From: Chitinophagales bacterium
GTDB taxonomy: Bacteria; Bacteroidota; Bacteroidia; Chitinophagales; Saprospiraceae
Length of the DNA: 64,000 nt
Assembly: GCA_013297745.1 (NCBI GenBank)
Contig: JAAFIM010000002.1
Span: forward strand, 1-64,000
Direction: 5' to 3'
The position numbers and the translations under genes are program-made. The notes beneath the pieces were generated by a model. That model was not told the DNA's origin. It saw only the letters and a program-made list of their open reading frames with translations, and did not search any database. Below are positions 5,773 through 12,119 of this stretch, piece after piece. Within the stretch, counting starts at the first letter, position 1, and every line of letters starts with the position of its first letter.

Positions 5773-6975
5773 CTACCATTGAGGAAATTTATCCACAGCA
5801 CCGCGATTTTTTTTGAAAAAAGCCCATTCTTCATCCGTACAAAGGCAAGCATTTAACGTCTTCAATATGCCTGTTATGTGCATCATTTGCCCAATAAAGA
5901 CAAGCTCTTGCTGTCTATCGCCAAATTGTTTATCCCATTTAGATTGTATAAACTCTTGATTTTCAAGATAATAAGCATTTTCTAACCGTTTTTCAAAGCT
6001 AATAGCTGCCCACCAACGCCCTGCTGGTTCTACCCGCAAAGAGCCCCCAGCTTGCGACCAATTAATGGCAGATTCTGGGCGAGACGCCAACCAAAATACC
6101 CCTTTGCTTCTCACCACACTACGCGGGAAATTGAAGTTTAAAAAATCATAAAATCTATCCGGGTGAAAAGGTCGTTTTTCGCGAAATACAAAAGAAGAAA
6201 TCCCATACGCATCCGTTTCGGGGGTATGTTCGGCTTTGTTTAATTCTTGTATCCAACCAGCAGATTGAGAAGCCGTTTCAAAATCAAATTTATGCGTGTT
6301 CAAAATTTTAGCTGGGCTTATTTTCCCAAATTCAGAACGTATAATTTCTACCTTAGGATTTAATTTTAACAAAATACCCGTTAATTCAGCCAACTGTTCA
6401 GAAGACACCAAGTCCGTTTTATTCAAAATAATCACATCAGCAAATTCTATCTGTTCGGTCAACAAATTTACTACAGGGCGCGTGTCGGCCTCGTCATTGG
6501 TCAAATCCCTATCCAAAAGCGTATCCGCCGAACCAAAATCTTTATAAAAATTGAACGCATCCACCACAGTAACCATCGTATCCAAACGCGCAAATTCGCT
6601 CATATCTAAGCCTTCTTCGTTGCTAAAAGTTAGCGTTTGCGCCACAGGCAAAGGTTCGGAAATACCCGTGCTTTCTATCAACAAATAATCAAAACGTTGC
6701 TCTTTTGCCAATTTTTGCACTTCTTCCAACAAATCTTCGCGCAAAGTGCAGCAAATGCAGCCATTAGAAAGTTCGACTAATTTTTCTTCTGTGCGCGAAA
6801 GTTGAGTTTGTTGCGCCACCAACTGCGCGTCTATATTCACCTCGCTCATATCGTTGACTATTACAGCCACTTTCAAACCTTCGCGATTGTTCAACACGTG
6901 ATTTAATAAAGTTGTTTTACCCGCGCCCAAAAAGCCCGACAAAACCGTAACTGGGATTCTTTTTACCTGTTCCAT
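5773..6975 (-). CDS. COG0523 GTPase, zinc metallochaperone type (CobW/YciC/ZNG1)
   Basis: G3E-family GTPase of about 400 residues, thought in this subfamily to deliver zinc to client enzymes under zinc limitation. The ATG at 6975 ([20 protein letters not shown]) is chosen because upstream residues are unlike the family and lie over the promoter. Walker [10 protein letters not shown] is residues 14-22. The metal-binding CxCC motif is NGCICC (Cys73, Cys75, Cys76). ESTGISEP and NKTDL switch motifs follow, and the C-terminal CobW domain is of the long YciC/ZigA type ([12 protein letters not shown]). Its -33 region contains the inverted repeat at 7038-7052, which suggests metalloregulation. The family is certain; zinc is inferred from subfamily and operator position. 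Confidence 0.93.
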
Positions 6976-7151: not shown

Positions 7152-7712
7152 ATGGAAATTTTATACCTCAAAAATATGGTCTGCGGGCGTTGTGTGGCTG
7201 TAGTAAAACAAGAGTTTGAAAAACTACAAATCCAAATAAATCGTATAGAACTGGGAAAAATTGAGCTTTTTGAAGAATTAAATGTTGAAAAAAAGACGAT
7301 TCTAACCGAAAATTTGCAAAAATGGGGTTTTGAACTACTAGAAAACAAACAAGCACAATGGATTGAACAGGTAAAAAAAGCCATTTTAACTTGGCTACAA
7401 CTGCCCGACAAAGAAAAACAGCCCAACGCTTCCGATTTTATCTCCAAAAATGTGGGACGCGATTATTCTTTTCTAAGCAATTTGTTCTCTTTGGTTGAAG
7501 GGCTTACGGTTGAAAAATATATTATTTTGCAAAAAATAGAAAAAGCCAAAGAATTATTGGTTTATAACGAATTAACCCTTTCAGAAATTGCGATTATTTT
7601 GAATTATAGCAGCGTACAGCATTTGTCCGCCCAATTTAAGAAAATTACAGGTTTTACCGTCAGCGAGTTCAAAAAACTACAACCACCACGCCAAGCCATA
7701 GATAAAATTTAA
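7152..7712 (+). CDS. AraC-type regulator with a CxxC metal-binding-like head
   Basis: 186 residues. The N-terminus (EILYLKNMVCGRCVAVV) looks like the first strand and metal loop of an HMA domain, with Cys11 and Cys14 as the likely metal or thiol site. The C-terminal part from about residue 110 is an AraC helix-turn-helix: LTLSEIAIILNYSSVQHLSAQFKKITG. Short regulators of this build are frequent in Bacteroidota beside heavy-metal genes. It opens a plus-strand run of a cytochrome, an HMA-membrane protein, a Cys-rich protein and a receptor, and so is the obvious local sensor. That it senses metal is inferred from the CxxC and the neighbours. Confidence 0.85.
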   Translation: MEILYLKNMVCGRCVAVVKQEFEKLQIQINRIELGKIELFEELNVEKKTILTENLQKWGFELLENKQAQWIEQVKKAILTWLQLPDKEKQPNASDFISKNVGRDYSFLSNLFSLVEGLTVEKYIILQKIEKAKELLVYNELTLSEIAIILNYSSVQHLSAQFKKITGFTVSEFKKLQPPRQAIDKI

Positions 7713-7742: not shown

Positions 7743-8093
7743 ATGAAAAAAATTAGCATTTTCAGTTTATTTTCTCTCGGTTTTGTAGCTTGTATGCAAC
7801 ACGAAGCCGATTTAAGCGCTTATAATTGCAGCAGCACAATACCTACTTATACTGCTGATATTCAGCCAATTATGACTACCCATTGTACGAATTGCCACGG
7901 CGCAAGCAATCCTTCTGATGGTTTAGATTTAAGCACCTACACCAACGTAAAAGAACACGTGCAACACGCTCGCTTTTGGGGTTCATTGGAACATAAATCA
8001 AAATATGAAGCTATGCCAAAAAATGCGGCAAAATTGCCCGATAGCGTACTCACTAAAATCGCTTGTTGGGCAAAAAATGGTAGCCCTCAATAG
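7743..8093 (+). CDS. Small c-type cytochrome lipoprotein
   Basis: 116 residues. A short hydrophobic leader ends in a lipobox-like FVAC (Cys17), so the protein is probably lipid-anchored and periplasm-facing. One haem-binding motif CTNCH is Cys48-His52, and a Met near residue 90 (YEAMPKN) could be the distal ligand. The TYTADIQPIMTTHC lead-in is typical of the Planctomycete-type/DUF1549-like cytochrome domain found alone in Bacteroidota. It sits 30 bases after the AraC-type gene and 30 before the HMA gene, so it is probably in the same operon; a redox role in metal reduction or thiol chemistry is possible but not shown. Confidence 0.88.
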   Translation: MKKISIFSLFSLGFVACMQHEADLSAYNCSSTIPTYTADIQPIMTTHCTNCHGASNPSDGLDLSTYTNVKEHVQHARFWGSLEHKSKYEAMPKNAAKLPDSVLTKIACWAKNGSPQ

Positions 8094-8123: not shown

Positions 8124-8840
8124 ATGCAACAAACCCTTTTCATCAACGGCATCACTTGTGCAGCCTGCGAGTATAAAATCAAGCATTTATTCGGCAACAT
8201 TCCCAATGTGGAGCAGGTAGAAGTGGATTTAGCAACGGGGAAAACTGACGTTTTCAGCTCACAAAGCGTTGATATACAACAATTTGAAGAAACGCTAAAA
8301 CCTTACCCAAAATACAGCATCAGCAAGCCCCAAATTAGCGAAAAAGCAGCAGAAACGCCCAAAACTTGGTTGCAAACTTACAAGCCTATTCTGTTGATAT
8401 TCAGCTACATAACGGGAATTTCTGCCTTTATAGGCTTACAAAGCGGGAATTTCGATTTAATGCTGTTTATGCGCGCGTTTATGGCAGCGTTTTTCCTCTT
8501 ATTTTCGTTTTTTAAAATGTTGGATTTGCGCGGATTTGCCGATAGTTATCAAATGTACGATTTGGTGGCTAAAAAACTCCCCATTTGGGGCTTAATTTAT
8601 CCTTTTGTAGAGTTATTTTTAGGAATAGCCTATTTGGTTGATTTTCAACCTTTTATTACTAATATCATTTGCGCTGTGGTGATGTCGGTTAGCTTATTGG
8701 GCGTTTTGCAATCTGTATTTAATAAAAATAAAATTCGCTGTGCTTGTTTAGGTTCAGTTTTTAATTTGCCTATGTCCACAATTACCATTATAGAAGATGG
8801 TTTGATGATAATTATGGCAATTTTTATGCTGATTTTATAA
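8124..8840 (+). CDS. HMA domain fused to a MauE/DoxX-like membrane protein
   Basis: 238 residues. Residues 1-65 form a heavy-metal-associated domain with the metal loop GITCAACE (Cys12, Cys15). From about residue 87 there are four or five membrane helices in the MauE/DoxX-like pattern (ILLIFSYITGISAFIGL, FFLLFSFFKMLDLRGFADSY, FVELFLGIAYL). A second CxC pair (RCACLG) lies in the last loop, as in MauE-like proteins that carry reducing equivalents across the membrane. It could pass metal or electrons between cytoplasm and periplasm. It is the third gene of the metal run and is followed by an operator-like repeat. Confidence 0.88.
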   Translation: MQQTLFINGITCAACEYKIKHLFGNIPNVEQVEVDLATGKTDVFSSQSVDIQQFEETLKPYPKYSISKPQISEKAAETPKTWLQTYKPILLIFSYITGISAFIGLQSGNFDLMLFMRAFMAAFFLLFSFFKMLDLRGFADSYQMYDLVAKKLPIWGLIYPFVELFLGIAYLVDFQPFITNIICAVVMSVSLLGVLQSVFNKNKIRCACLGSVFNLPMSTITIIEDGLMIIMAIFMLIL

Positions 8841-8844
8841 ACGC

Positions 8845-8859
8845 TGCAAACGGGTTGCA
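8845..8859. promoter_or_regulatory. Second TGCAA-N5-TTGCA inverted repeat (candidate metalloregulator site)
   Basis: TGCAAAC-G-GGTTGCA shares both 5-base half-site ends and the 15-bp length with the palindrome at 7038-7052. It starts 5 bases after the HMA-membrane gene and 26 bases upstream of the -33 element of the Cys-rich gene. The inner arms are imperfect (one mismatch). Confidence 0.5.
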
Positions 8860-8884
8860 AAAACTAACCTTTTTTGCTAAAAAA

Positions 8885-8916
8885 CTTGCTGGATAGTGTA
8901 TAAGTGCGTATATTTG
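8885..8916 (+). promoter_or_regulatory. Promoter of the Cys-rich protein and receptor genes
   Basis: TTG at 8885-8887 and TATATTTG at 8909-8916 with 21 bases between: a good match to the Bacteroidota -33/-7 promoter. The ATG at 8947 follows 30 bases later. Confidence 0.7.
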
Positions 8917-8946
8917 CGCATATTTTCAATCTAAAACGTTAAACAA

Positions 8947-9438
8947 ATGGCTCGTTATCAACATTTTATCGCGTGCTGGCTGGCTTTGCTGGTGTTCTTG
9001 TCCTCTGTGGGCGTGAACGCCTACGCTGGTTATTGCACCTGTCGCGGGCAAAATTTTGTTTCGTTTTTGTACAAAAATCAATGCTGCAAGCACGAAGATA
9101 CACCCAAATGCTGCCTTTCTGCGGGCAAAATTTGCACAAAAGCGGATTTTGAACCAGAAAAAAAACAGTTGAAAAAGAAAGATTGCTGCGAAACCGAATC
9201 TTTTTACAGCAACGTCAGCACAGAAATTGATAAATTACCCGCGTTCAGTTTTTCGCCGTATAAAATAGCTTTTGTTCTGCCCAAATTTAGTTTTTTGTAC
9301 AAAAATACTGCCCAACAGTTTTTTTACCGTATAAAAATTAAAACGGACGAGATAAAAACCAATTTCGTAAATTGGTTGCCGCCGCCCAGTCTTTCGGGTA
9401 GAAAATTACTGAACTTCTGCCAAGTTTATAGATGTTAG
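8947..9438 (+). CDS. Cys-rich secreted protein, HYC_CC_PP-like
   Basis: 163 residues with an N-terminal hydrophobic segment (residues 7-26). The mature part has a string of Cys pairs: CTC, CC near 48, CC near 57, a single C, and CC near 77. The C-terminal block is NWLPPPSLSGR. This spacing (aromatic-Cys, CC, then PP near the end) matches small proteins encoded next to TonB receptors in Bacteroidota, called HYC_CC_PP. Function is unknown; the thiols suggest soft-metal binding at the periplasmic side. It ends 56 bases before the receptor ATG, so the two are probably cotranscribed. Confidence 0.8.
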   Translation: MARYQHFIACWLALLVFLSSVGVNAYAGYCTCRGQNFVSFLYKNQCCKHEDTPKCCLSAGKICTKADFEPEKKQLKKKDCCETESFYSNVSTEIDKLPAFSFSPYKIAFVLPKFSFLYKNTAQQFFYRIKIKTDEIKTNFVNWLPPPSLSGRKLLNFCQVYRC

Positions 9439-9494
9439 CCAAAAAATAAGTGTTCAAAACCTTATTTTTTAATATGCTAATCTCTTTAAATAAT

Positions 9495-12077
9495 ATGCAA
9501 AAATTCTTTTTTTTAATTTTTAGCCTTTTTTTATTGGTAAAAAATGCAGAAGCACAGAATAAAAATCTATTTCGTGCAAAAATTGTAGATGCGGAAAAAT
9601 CCACGCTGATTGGCGCAATTGTGCGCTGGGAAAATACAGAAATTGCCACCACTACAGATGAAAACGGCTGGATGGAAATTCAGCGAGTGGATAGCATCAA
9701 CGGTTATAATCTACAAATTTCTTACGTGGGTTATGACGATGTTTTGGTGGAAATTCTACCCGAAGAAGATAGTTTGCAGCTAAAACTTACCGCGCCCACA
9801 ACTTTAGAAATGGTTACGGTAGAAACCAAAGCCGAAAATACAGCCGTTTCTGTAGTCAATAATTTCAACATAGAAACTATAGGCGAGGGCGAACTCAAAC
9901 GCGCCGCTTGTTGCTCATTATCAGAGAGTTTTGAAACCAACGGAACTGTGAATGTGAACGCTACCGATGCAGTTTCTGGGGTCAAAGAGATTGAAATGTT
10001 GGGACTCAAGGGCGCAAATATCCAAATGCAGGTAGAAAATCGCCCAGTTTTAAACCGTTTGGATAGAAATTTTGGGTTGGAATATCTCGCAGGTTCGGTT
10101 ATTCAGCACATACAAATCTCCAAAGGCGCGAGTTCTGCCCGCACAGGCGTGCAGGGTTTGGCGGGACAAATCAACATAGAGTTACTAAAACCGCAAAAAG
10201 CGTCCTTATTTTTCATCAATTTGTACGCCAACCAATTCGGTAGAACAGAACTCAACACCAATTTCAACTACCGCTTGCCCAAAGGCTGGGCTGTGGGGAT
10301 TTTGGTTCATACCAACTATTTTCAGAACGAAATTGACCACAACCACGACGCTTTTTTGGATATTACCAAGAAAAAACAATGGAATGTTATCAACCGTTGG
10401 GTCAAACAGAGTAAAGAATGGCATATAGAATTTAACCTACACGCGCTACAAGATGATAGAAAAGGCGGCCAAACGGTGGATATTTACCACCATTTATACA
10501 ATCGCCACCCCGCCAAGTTATACCAAGTCAATAGCCAAGCCCAACGTTATGAATTTTTTGGCAAAATCGGCTATCTCGGTTCGCCCCGTCCCAACGAAAG
10601 TATGTCTTTGATTTACAACGTTTTGCATTACAACCAAAATATGCAAATTGGGGATAGAAAATACAACGGACTTCAGCAATCGGCTTATGTGAGCGGGATT
10701 TATCAAAACAACCTTTTCAATAGCAAAGAGCATTTTATCAACGCGGGCTTTCAGTATAATTTTGATAAATTGAATGAAAATTTTGAAAATATCGCATTGA
10801 ATAGAAACGAGCAACTAGCTGCTGTATATGCAGAGTACGAATTTGATAAAAAATTGCAGAATGGGCAAAGTTTGGGCTTAATCGCTACGGCTAACGTTTC
10901 GCATTTTGTGCTGATGAATAATGTGCAAAAAACGTACTTTTCGCCCCGCTTGAATTTCAAATATAACCTTTCTTCAGCTTCCATTTTGCGCGCTTCAGCT
11001 GGGCGCGGGGTGCGTATGCCCTTGGCTTTGGCTGAAAATGTGCGTTATATGGTTTCTGGTAGAAATTTTGTTTTGAACGAGTACATTATGCCCGAAGAGG
11101 GTTGGAATTATGGTATCAATTACACCCATAAATTTTATATTTTGCTAAAAGCGGCTTCTTTGAACATAGATTTGTACAGAACCGACTTCCAAAATCAACT
11201 GGTGGCGGACTTAGACCGCGAAAATGGGCAAGTTTTTTTAACCAATTTGAACGGAAAATCTTATTCCAACAGCTTTTTGCTCACTTATAGCCAAGATTTG
11301 TTCAAAAATTTCAACCTGCGCGCTGCTTACAAATTCAACGATGTGCGCACCACTTTGGCGGGCGAAACTCAACTGCAAATTTTGCAACCGCAGCACAGGG
11401 GGCTGATTACCGCCCAATACCAAAACACCAAAATTGGCTGGCAAGTGGATATAACCGCGCAATTCATTGGTTCTCAACGATTACCGCACAGTAGTAATTA
11501 TTCCAAACCTTACGCGCTGATGCTGGCTCAAGTTACCAAAATTTTCAAAAATGGCTGGGAAGTGTATTTGGGGGGCGAAAATCTAACCAATTACACACAA
11601 CAAAATCCGATTATTAACTACCAAAACCCGTTCTCGGCTACATTTGACGCGTCTTTGGTGTATGCGCCCGTTATGGGAACGATGATTTACGCAGGTTTCC
11701 GCTATTCTATCCCGCAAAAAAAGGGAAAAAATGAAGTTCGTTCAGCCTGCAACCACGAAGCCAACGAATCTTATAGCCACAAATCAATCCCAGCCGACAA
11801 ACACCCAGAAGGCGCGCACTTGCACAGCGTAGAGATTAAAACTTCTGCCCAATGTGGTATGTGCAAAACAGCACTAGAAAAACGCCTTTCTAAAATGCCC
11901 GAAGTTGAAGCCGTAGATTTGAACTTAGAAACGCAAATTTTTACTATAACTTTCCAACACGGCGGCGATACCGATTTTTACAAAAAAACGATTAGCCTAC
12001 TCGGTTATGATGCGGATGAAATTCCCGCCAACGCTAAGGCTTATGCCAAATTGCCCGCTTGTTGCAAAAAAGAATAA
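9495..12077 (+). CDS. TonB-dependent receptor with a C-terminal HMA domain
   Basis: Outer-membrane active transporter of 860 residues from the ATG that begins a signal peptide (MQKFFFLIFSLFLLVKNAEAQ); earlier starts are possible. Order: carboxypeptidase-like N-terminal domain (residues ~25-105), plug with a Cys pair (RAACCSLSESFETN, near 138) and the MLGLKGANIQMQVENRPV block, then the 22-strand barrel to about 745. A His-rich linker follows (HEANESYSHKS, KHPEGAHLHS). The last ~80 residues form an HMA fold with CGMC (Cys787, Cys790) and a CC pair three residues before the C-terminal KKE. Both ends of such barrels face the periplasm, so the HMA domain would meet metal emerging from the pore. 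The substrate is inferred to be a soft metal (Cu or Zn) or its complex. Confidence 0.93.
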   Translation: MQKFFFLIFSLFLLVKNAEAQNKNLFRAKIVDAEKSTLIGAIVRWENTEIATTTDENGWMEIQRVDSINGYNLQISYVGYDDVLVEILPEEDSLQLKLTAPTTLEMVTVETKAENTAVSVVNNFNIETIGEGELKRAACCSLSESFETNGTVNVNATDAVSGVKEIEMLGLKGANIQMQVENRPVLNRLDRNFGLEYLAGSVIQHIQISKGASSARTGVQGLAGQINIELLKPQKASLFFINLYANQFGRTELNTNFNYRLPKGWAVGILVHTNYFQNEIDHNHDAFLDITKKKQWNVINRWVKQSKEWHIEFNLHALQDDRKGGQTVDIYHHLYNRHPAKLYQVNSQAQRYEFFGKIGYLGSPRPNESMSLIYNVLHYNQNMQIGDRKYNGLQQSAYVSGIYQNNLFNSKEHFINAGFQYNFDKLNENFENIALNRNEQLAAVYAEYEFDKKLQNGQSLGLIATANVSHFVLMNNVQKTYFSPRLNFKYNLSSASILRASAGRGVRMPLALAENVRYMVSGRNFVLNEYIMPEEGWNYGINYTHKFYILLKAASLNIDLYRTDFQNQLVADLDRENGQVFLTNLNGKSYSNSFLLTYSQDLFKNFNLRAAYKFNDVRTTLAGETQLQILQPQHRGLITAQYQNTKIGWQVDITAQFIGSQRLPHSSNYSKPYALMLAQVTKIFKNGWEVYLGGENLTNYTQQNPIINYQNPFSATFDASLVYAPVMGTMIYAGFRYSIPQKKGKNEVRSACNHEANESYSHKSIPADKHPEGAHLHSVEIKTSAQCGMCKTALEKRLSKMPEVEAVDLNLETQIFTITFQHGGDTDFYKKTISLLGYDADEIPANAKAYAKLPACCKKE

Positions 12078-12090
12078 ATAATTATACCCC

Positions 12091-12119
12091 AAAGCTCGCT
12101 CAAAAGGCGGGCTTTTTTT
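12091..12119 (+). terminator. Terminator after the receptor gene (GCTCGC family)
   Basis: AAAGCTCGCT, short A-rich loop, AGGCGGGCTTT, then eight T. Near-identical hairpins close the genes ending at 12664 and 14557. Confidence 0.8.

Follow-up and report, generated by a model that had tools for sequence, protein, structure and literature searches.

The window analyzed here, a 64,000-nucleotide stretch of a Chitinophagales bacterium genome (contig JAAFIM010000002.1, positions 1 to 64,000, forward strand), contains a gene whose product appears to join a TonB-dependent receptor to an HMA metal-binding domain. This locus raises the question of whether such a fusion is genuine and, if so, what a metal-binding domain would do at the end of an outer-membrane receptor. 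To our knowledge, the reception in the periplasm of metals released by TonB receptors is poorly known, and the fusion offers a single-chain protein for testing the hand-over.

Architecture and recurrence of the fused receptor

The gene (9495-12077, forward strand) is an intact frame of 860 codons without an internal stop, and its 860-residue product (P0001) matches three Pfam families within one protein: CarbopepD_reg_2 (PF13715; residues 29-103, positions 9579-9803), which constitutes an N-terminal extension domain, the plug (PF07715; residues 125-224, positions 9867-10166), and HMA (PF00403; residues 787-820). Both the plug and the HMA matches exceed their cut-offs, the latter at 25.7 bits against 24.8, and two such separate matches are what the initial annotation had expected a domain search to return. 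The chain begins with a signal peptide (9495-9554), probably cleaved between AEA and Q, and the plug contains a Cys-Cys pair (C139-C140, positions 9909-9914; motif RAACCSLSESFE). The plug is followed by a predicted beta-barrel (approximately residues 239-740, positions 10209-11714, with the final strand at 730-739), a flexible linker containing five His and one Cys (approximately residues 746-775, positions 11730-11819), and the HMA domain (approximately residues 776-845, positions 11820-12029). The last of these carries the predicted metal-binding motif CGMC (residues 787-790, positions 11853-11864), and a second Cys-Cys pair lies close to the C-terminus (residues 856-857, positions 12060-12065).

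An AlphaFold2 model built with 74 rows of related sequence (mean pLDDT 90.2) is confident for both the barrel and the HMA domain. Foldseek matches to the whole model were TonB transporters (E ~1e-23), including Cir, PhuR, and ZnuD, with OprC at rank 48; a plug over the PF07715 cut-off is thus combined with an outer-membrane barrel of the TonB-transporter type. Residues 777-851 are modelled in the order beta-alpha-beta-beta-alpha followed by a short helix (pLDDT ~93). This is the ferredoxin-like fold of the HMA family, whose first loop carries CxxC, and Foldseek assigns the domain likewise. The initial description of a receptor fused in one frame to a complete HMA-type fold with CGMC and a final Cys-Cys pair is therefore borne out. 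The ordered linker that had been expected as support was not found, as residues 748-772 are predicted to be disordered (linker core pLDDT 34-38), and the characterization of the linker as His-rich is right for the window protein but does not extend to its relatives, since the histidines are absent from the fusions of G021 and G091. Within the barrel region, the sequence DHNHDAFLD (residues 281-289, positions 10335-10361) corresponds to a conserved DxNxDGFLD-like motif resembling calcium-binding loops, in which D281, D285, F287, and D289 are each conserved in more than 96% of the family alignment.

The same C-terminal fusion occurs in at least six other genomes. Five of these come from the same family as the window (G021, G142, G091, G167, and G072, which is Saprospira grandis), have receptors 44-47% identical to the window protein, and form with it a fully supported clade in a FastTree tree of 156 receptors, where support values are local only; the sixth (G126) lies elsewhere in the tree. 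In G142, two HMA domains stand in tandem behind the barrel (locus L159, contig C1, receptor at 8328-11282, minus strand). A frameshift, misassembly, or chance match joining two genes, the error that the initial annotation had kept in view, has virtually no chance of being the explanation, because although the two parts are separate adjacent genes in most relatives, the same fusion recurs in at least six other genomes, five of which belong to the window's clade, and the genome of S. grandis (NC_016940.1) is complete. The receptor-HMA fusion is real.

A receptor family and its HMA partner

The plug Cys-Cys pair was present in all 156 aligned receptors, with or without an HMA neighbor, and is therefore a hallmark of the family and not the oddity for which it (RAACC) had originally been taken. 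Relatives of the receptor are spread across Bacteroidota, being found in 149 of the 199 sampled genomes of the window's own family (E 1e-60) and in 76 of 296 genomes sampled from the phylum (E 1e-70), both of which are lower bounds. A scan of genome contigs using the window protein as a single query gave no match, while a scan with the family alignment yielded 587 relatives, the top 80 being retained. The best PDB match of the profile search was XusA. Outside Bacteroidota proper, a family receptor was observed in an Ignavibacterium MAG (L059), where an adjoining HMA gene was not found. In addition, two records from human faeces labelled "Bacteriophage sp." (MT838850.1 and MT837870.1) contain a relative of the window receptor (32% identity), perhaps representing bacterial DNA in a virome.

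In 69 of the 81 census loci, the HMA domain is encoded by a separate gene that always shares the strand of the receptor gene and in most cases directly follows it, and the separate HMA proteins inspected, which were examples from these loci, begin with signal peptides. Across the 296-genome sample, an HMA of the same type was found in 71 of the 76 receptor-positive genomes compared to 32 of the 220 receptor-negative genomes (Fisher p ~1e-36, a value overstated by the relatedness of the genomes); the remaining five receptor-positive genomes were without one. The CxxC motif occurs in 151/151 HMA domains of the family and the Cys-Cys pair in 133/151. Annotated records of Bernardetia and Parabacteroides distasonis also contain the receptor and HMA genes as part of a trio whose first gene is annotated as hypothetical. 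The initial generalization that the chaperone is usually a separate periplasmic protein thus applies to this receptor family, where it would be the exported product of the adjoining gene. Because the HMA domain is usually encoded by a separate adjoining gene across Bacteroidota, these findings suggest that the receptor and the HMA protein work as a pair importing a thiol-binding metal, most likely copper. The architecture and the receptor-HMA partnership are solid. The pairing is common but apparently undescribed, as no description of either the pair or the fusion was found in the open-access literature, and the fusion is its rare form.

Where the C-terminal fusion is present, a search with the HMA family identified no convincing separate copy in the same genome. 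One HMA match each was found in the window's own genome (G000), G021, G072, and G126, while G142 had two, both inside the receptor, and G091 had one further match that was weak (33.5 bits). By Pfam, G000 contains two HMA domains in total, the receptor fusion and a protein combining HMA with MauE (see below). The closest unfused Saprospiraceae receptors had no adjoining HMA gene within the flanks examined, and only some of their genomes have one elsewhere.

On the tree of 156 receptors, C-terminal fusion accounts for two changes, one in the six-member clade of the window and one in G126; N-terminal fusion, with one or two HMA domains per fusion, accounts for three. This count cannot separate gain from loss. 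N-terminal fusions were observed at L138-L142 (family f20) and at many Saprospiraceae loci (e.g., L018, L021, and L022). On the wider question of how many Bacteroidota receptors share the fusion, posed at the outset, this tree gives two C-terminal and three N-terminal origins. Both termini of TonB receptors face the periplasm; therefore, every fusion would place the HMA domain on the same side of the membrane. With the receiver tied to the receptor at five tree positions and in two orientations, the partner can be named. The earlier proposal of a cargo-catching domain beneath the pore is supported by the separate exported neighbors, by independent fusion to either terminus, and by the lack of a convincing separate copy in the genomes with a C-terminal fusion.

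The HMA domain could alternatively serve as a periplasmic buffer or gate, capturing excess metal or sensing it and regulating the plug, without handing the metal on. A flexible tether beside the plug, invariant plug cysteines with which those of the HMA domain could form pairs, and copper-type neighbors at some loci are all compatible with such a role. However, the separate, exported HMA proteins of most relatives are more in keeping with a carrier than with a gate fixed in place, and N-terminal fusions with tandem HMA domains resemble a carrier chain, making a buffer or gate quite improbable.

Operon context and the candidate metal

The window receptor is the last gene of an apparent operon on the forward strand. 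The first gene encodes an AraC-type regulator (7152-7712; Pfam) with a conserved N-terminal MVCxRC motif, a candidate metal sensor with relatives in 16 loci, whose N-terminus matched the HMA family weakly (hhalign probability 40). It is followed by a small cytochrome c-like lipoprotein with one CxxCH (7743-8093; Pfam) and by the HMA-MauE membrane protein (8124-8840; PF00403 and PF07291, both over cut-off), a candidate inner-membrane recipient of the metal whose relatives occur in six loci, the window's copy included. Directly upstream of the receptor lies a gene for a small, Cys-rich, exported HYC_CC_PP-like protein (8947-9438), which occupies the position of the family neighbor at -1. This protein falls below the cut-off of NCBIfam model NF047658 (HYC_CC_PP; 17.3 bits against 28), a model matched by 43 of 65 selected upstream equivalents (E 0.001), and a Cys-Cys pair occurs in 94 of 103 small upstream neighbors of receptors, a set in which a few HMA and AraC proteins are counted. 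Just 3' of the receptor gene, a consensus scan identified a terminator-like stem-loop with a T run (12091-12115, forward strand), which likely marks the end of the operon.

Approximately 0.2 kb upstream of the operon, a divergent gene (5773-6975, minus strand) encodes a ZigA-like GTPase of the zinc-chaperone type, which lies under but close to the cut-off of NF038288 (578.9 bits against 600). The ZigA-like protein, a YHS protein, and the cytochrome encoded in the window were considered as conserved parts of the system and rejected because none has relatives near other family receptors, even though the operon includes the cytochrome gene.

Evidence on the metal comes from the HMA domain and from the neighbors of related receptors. 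When the HMA domain was modelled alone, the nearest solved structures were CsoZ, CopZ, CCS, and Atx1 (Foldseek), and the HMA-family profile ranked copper ATPases and CopZ at the top and zinc and mercury proteins further down. Neighbors of family receptors include a Cu-type P-ATPase and an HMBD protein (L048), DUF326 (L058 and L085), and a multicopper oxidase with DUF3347 (L071), while in G126 an MbnP gene and a MauG-type di-haem (MbnH-type) peroxidase gene (L161, 303-2128) lie directly upstream of the genes for the Cys-rich protein and receptor-HMA. Such clear copper-type neighbors are confined to a minority of the loci, mainly from Cytophagales, and a FeoB-like gene, identified by eye, follows the receptor at L109. 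No P-type ATPase (PF00122) was found in the window's genome, which is 96% complete, whereas all 14 control genomes were positive. The same genome carries COX1 and SCO1-type genes, and a use for copper therefore exists. Heme-copper oxidase presence was dropped as a clue to the metal because 283 of the 296 sampled genomes have such an oxidase. Taken from sequence and modelling, copper is the most likely cargo, whether ionic or chelated.

The same tethered-chaperone design might carry zinc or another thiol-binding metal. HMA domains with CxxC also serve zinc, mercury, and cadmium, the fold matches of the barrel place the zinc receptor ZnuD near the top, and the ZigA-like GTPase is encoded close by on the opposite strand. 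Nevertheless, copper proteins make up nearly all of the top matches to the HMA domain by sequence and by fold, the metal-related neighbors of some relatives are of copper type, and no ZigA relative lies near any other family receptor; zinc or another metal in place of copper is thus credible but unlikely.

A proposed relay and its relation to known importers

The topology, transport, metal identity, route, and hand-over are what we infer from these patterns. We give a probability of about 0.6 to the reading that the window protein is an outer-membrane importer acting in a relay with the metallochaperone tethered to it in the periplasm, copper included. Such an energized importer for a thiol-binding metal would capture its cargo outside the cell, and a TonB-driven rearrangement of the plug would admit it, with the invariant plug Cys pair as a likely thiol way-station. 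The HMA domain, hanging under the barrel on a linker of approximately 30 residues, would bind the metal as Cu(I) through CGMC, perhaps aided by the terminal Cys-Cys pair. From there, the metal may pass by ligand exchange to other thiol proteins that the operon encodes for the periplasm or inner membrane, namely the Cys-rich HYC_CC_PP-like protein and HMA-MauE. The tether would thus replace the separate HMA protein encoded beside the receptor in most relatives. Several observations count against a copper relay, including the zinc and mercury proteins among the weaker HMA matches, the nearby ZigA-like GTPase, the FeoB-like gene at L109, the receptor-positive genomes without such an HMA, those among the nearest Saprospiraceae relatives whose receptors have no adjoining HMA gene, the small share of loci with clear copper-type neighbors, and the lack of the genome's own P-type ATPase to receive copper.

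A broader proposal, to which we would give somewhat less than even odds, is that Bacteroidota possess their own widespread copper-import system, in which a TonB receptor with the invariant plug Cys pair delivers Cu(I) directly to its own periplasmic HMA chaperone, leaving none of the metal free in the periplasm. Fusions to either end would then have arisen repeatedly because the partners dock under the pore. No paper on copper import by Bacteroidota was found in the open-access literature, in which the copper receptors identified were OprC and CrtA.

Known systems resemble parts of this proposal. OprC/NosA of Proteobacteria share the TonB-dependent receptor fold and a plug thiol, which in OprC has a role in metal binding, and the copper site of OprC combines a plug CxxxM with an HxM of the barrel wall; the available part of that source describes no HMA domain for OprC (PMC8610252). 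The OprC-type CxxxM is absent from the window plug, where SLSESF follows the Cys pair, and the NCBIfam matches at E 0.1 or better included no TonB-copper model. In Bordetella, CrtA (BfrG) likewise imports copper through a TonB receptor and is linked to respiratory oxidases, but HMA and CxxC go unmentioned for CrtA in the available part of its source (PMC12914433). The G126 receptor adjoins an MbnP/MbnH-type pair and thereby recalls MbnT; MbnP and MbnH belong to methanobactin operons, with their role left open in that source, and the operons described there are without an HMA partner (PMC3621798).

CopZ, Atx1, CCS, and MerP share the HMA fold and CxxC metal site with the window domain, which differs in being exported and tethered to a receptor, in having an additional C-terminal helix with a Cys-Cys pair, and in the replacement of the usual Met of MxCxxC (SAQCGMC). 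XusA/XusB and BtuB/BtuG of Bacteroides likewise combine a Bacteroidota TonB receptor with a partner protein of its own; however, judging by structure titles, XusB and BtuG are cell-surface lipoproteins, unlike the periplasmic metal carrier proposed here. The receptor-HMA pair is also present in the gut commensal P. distasonis, and the question therefore extends past one aquatic genus.
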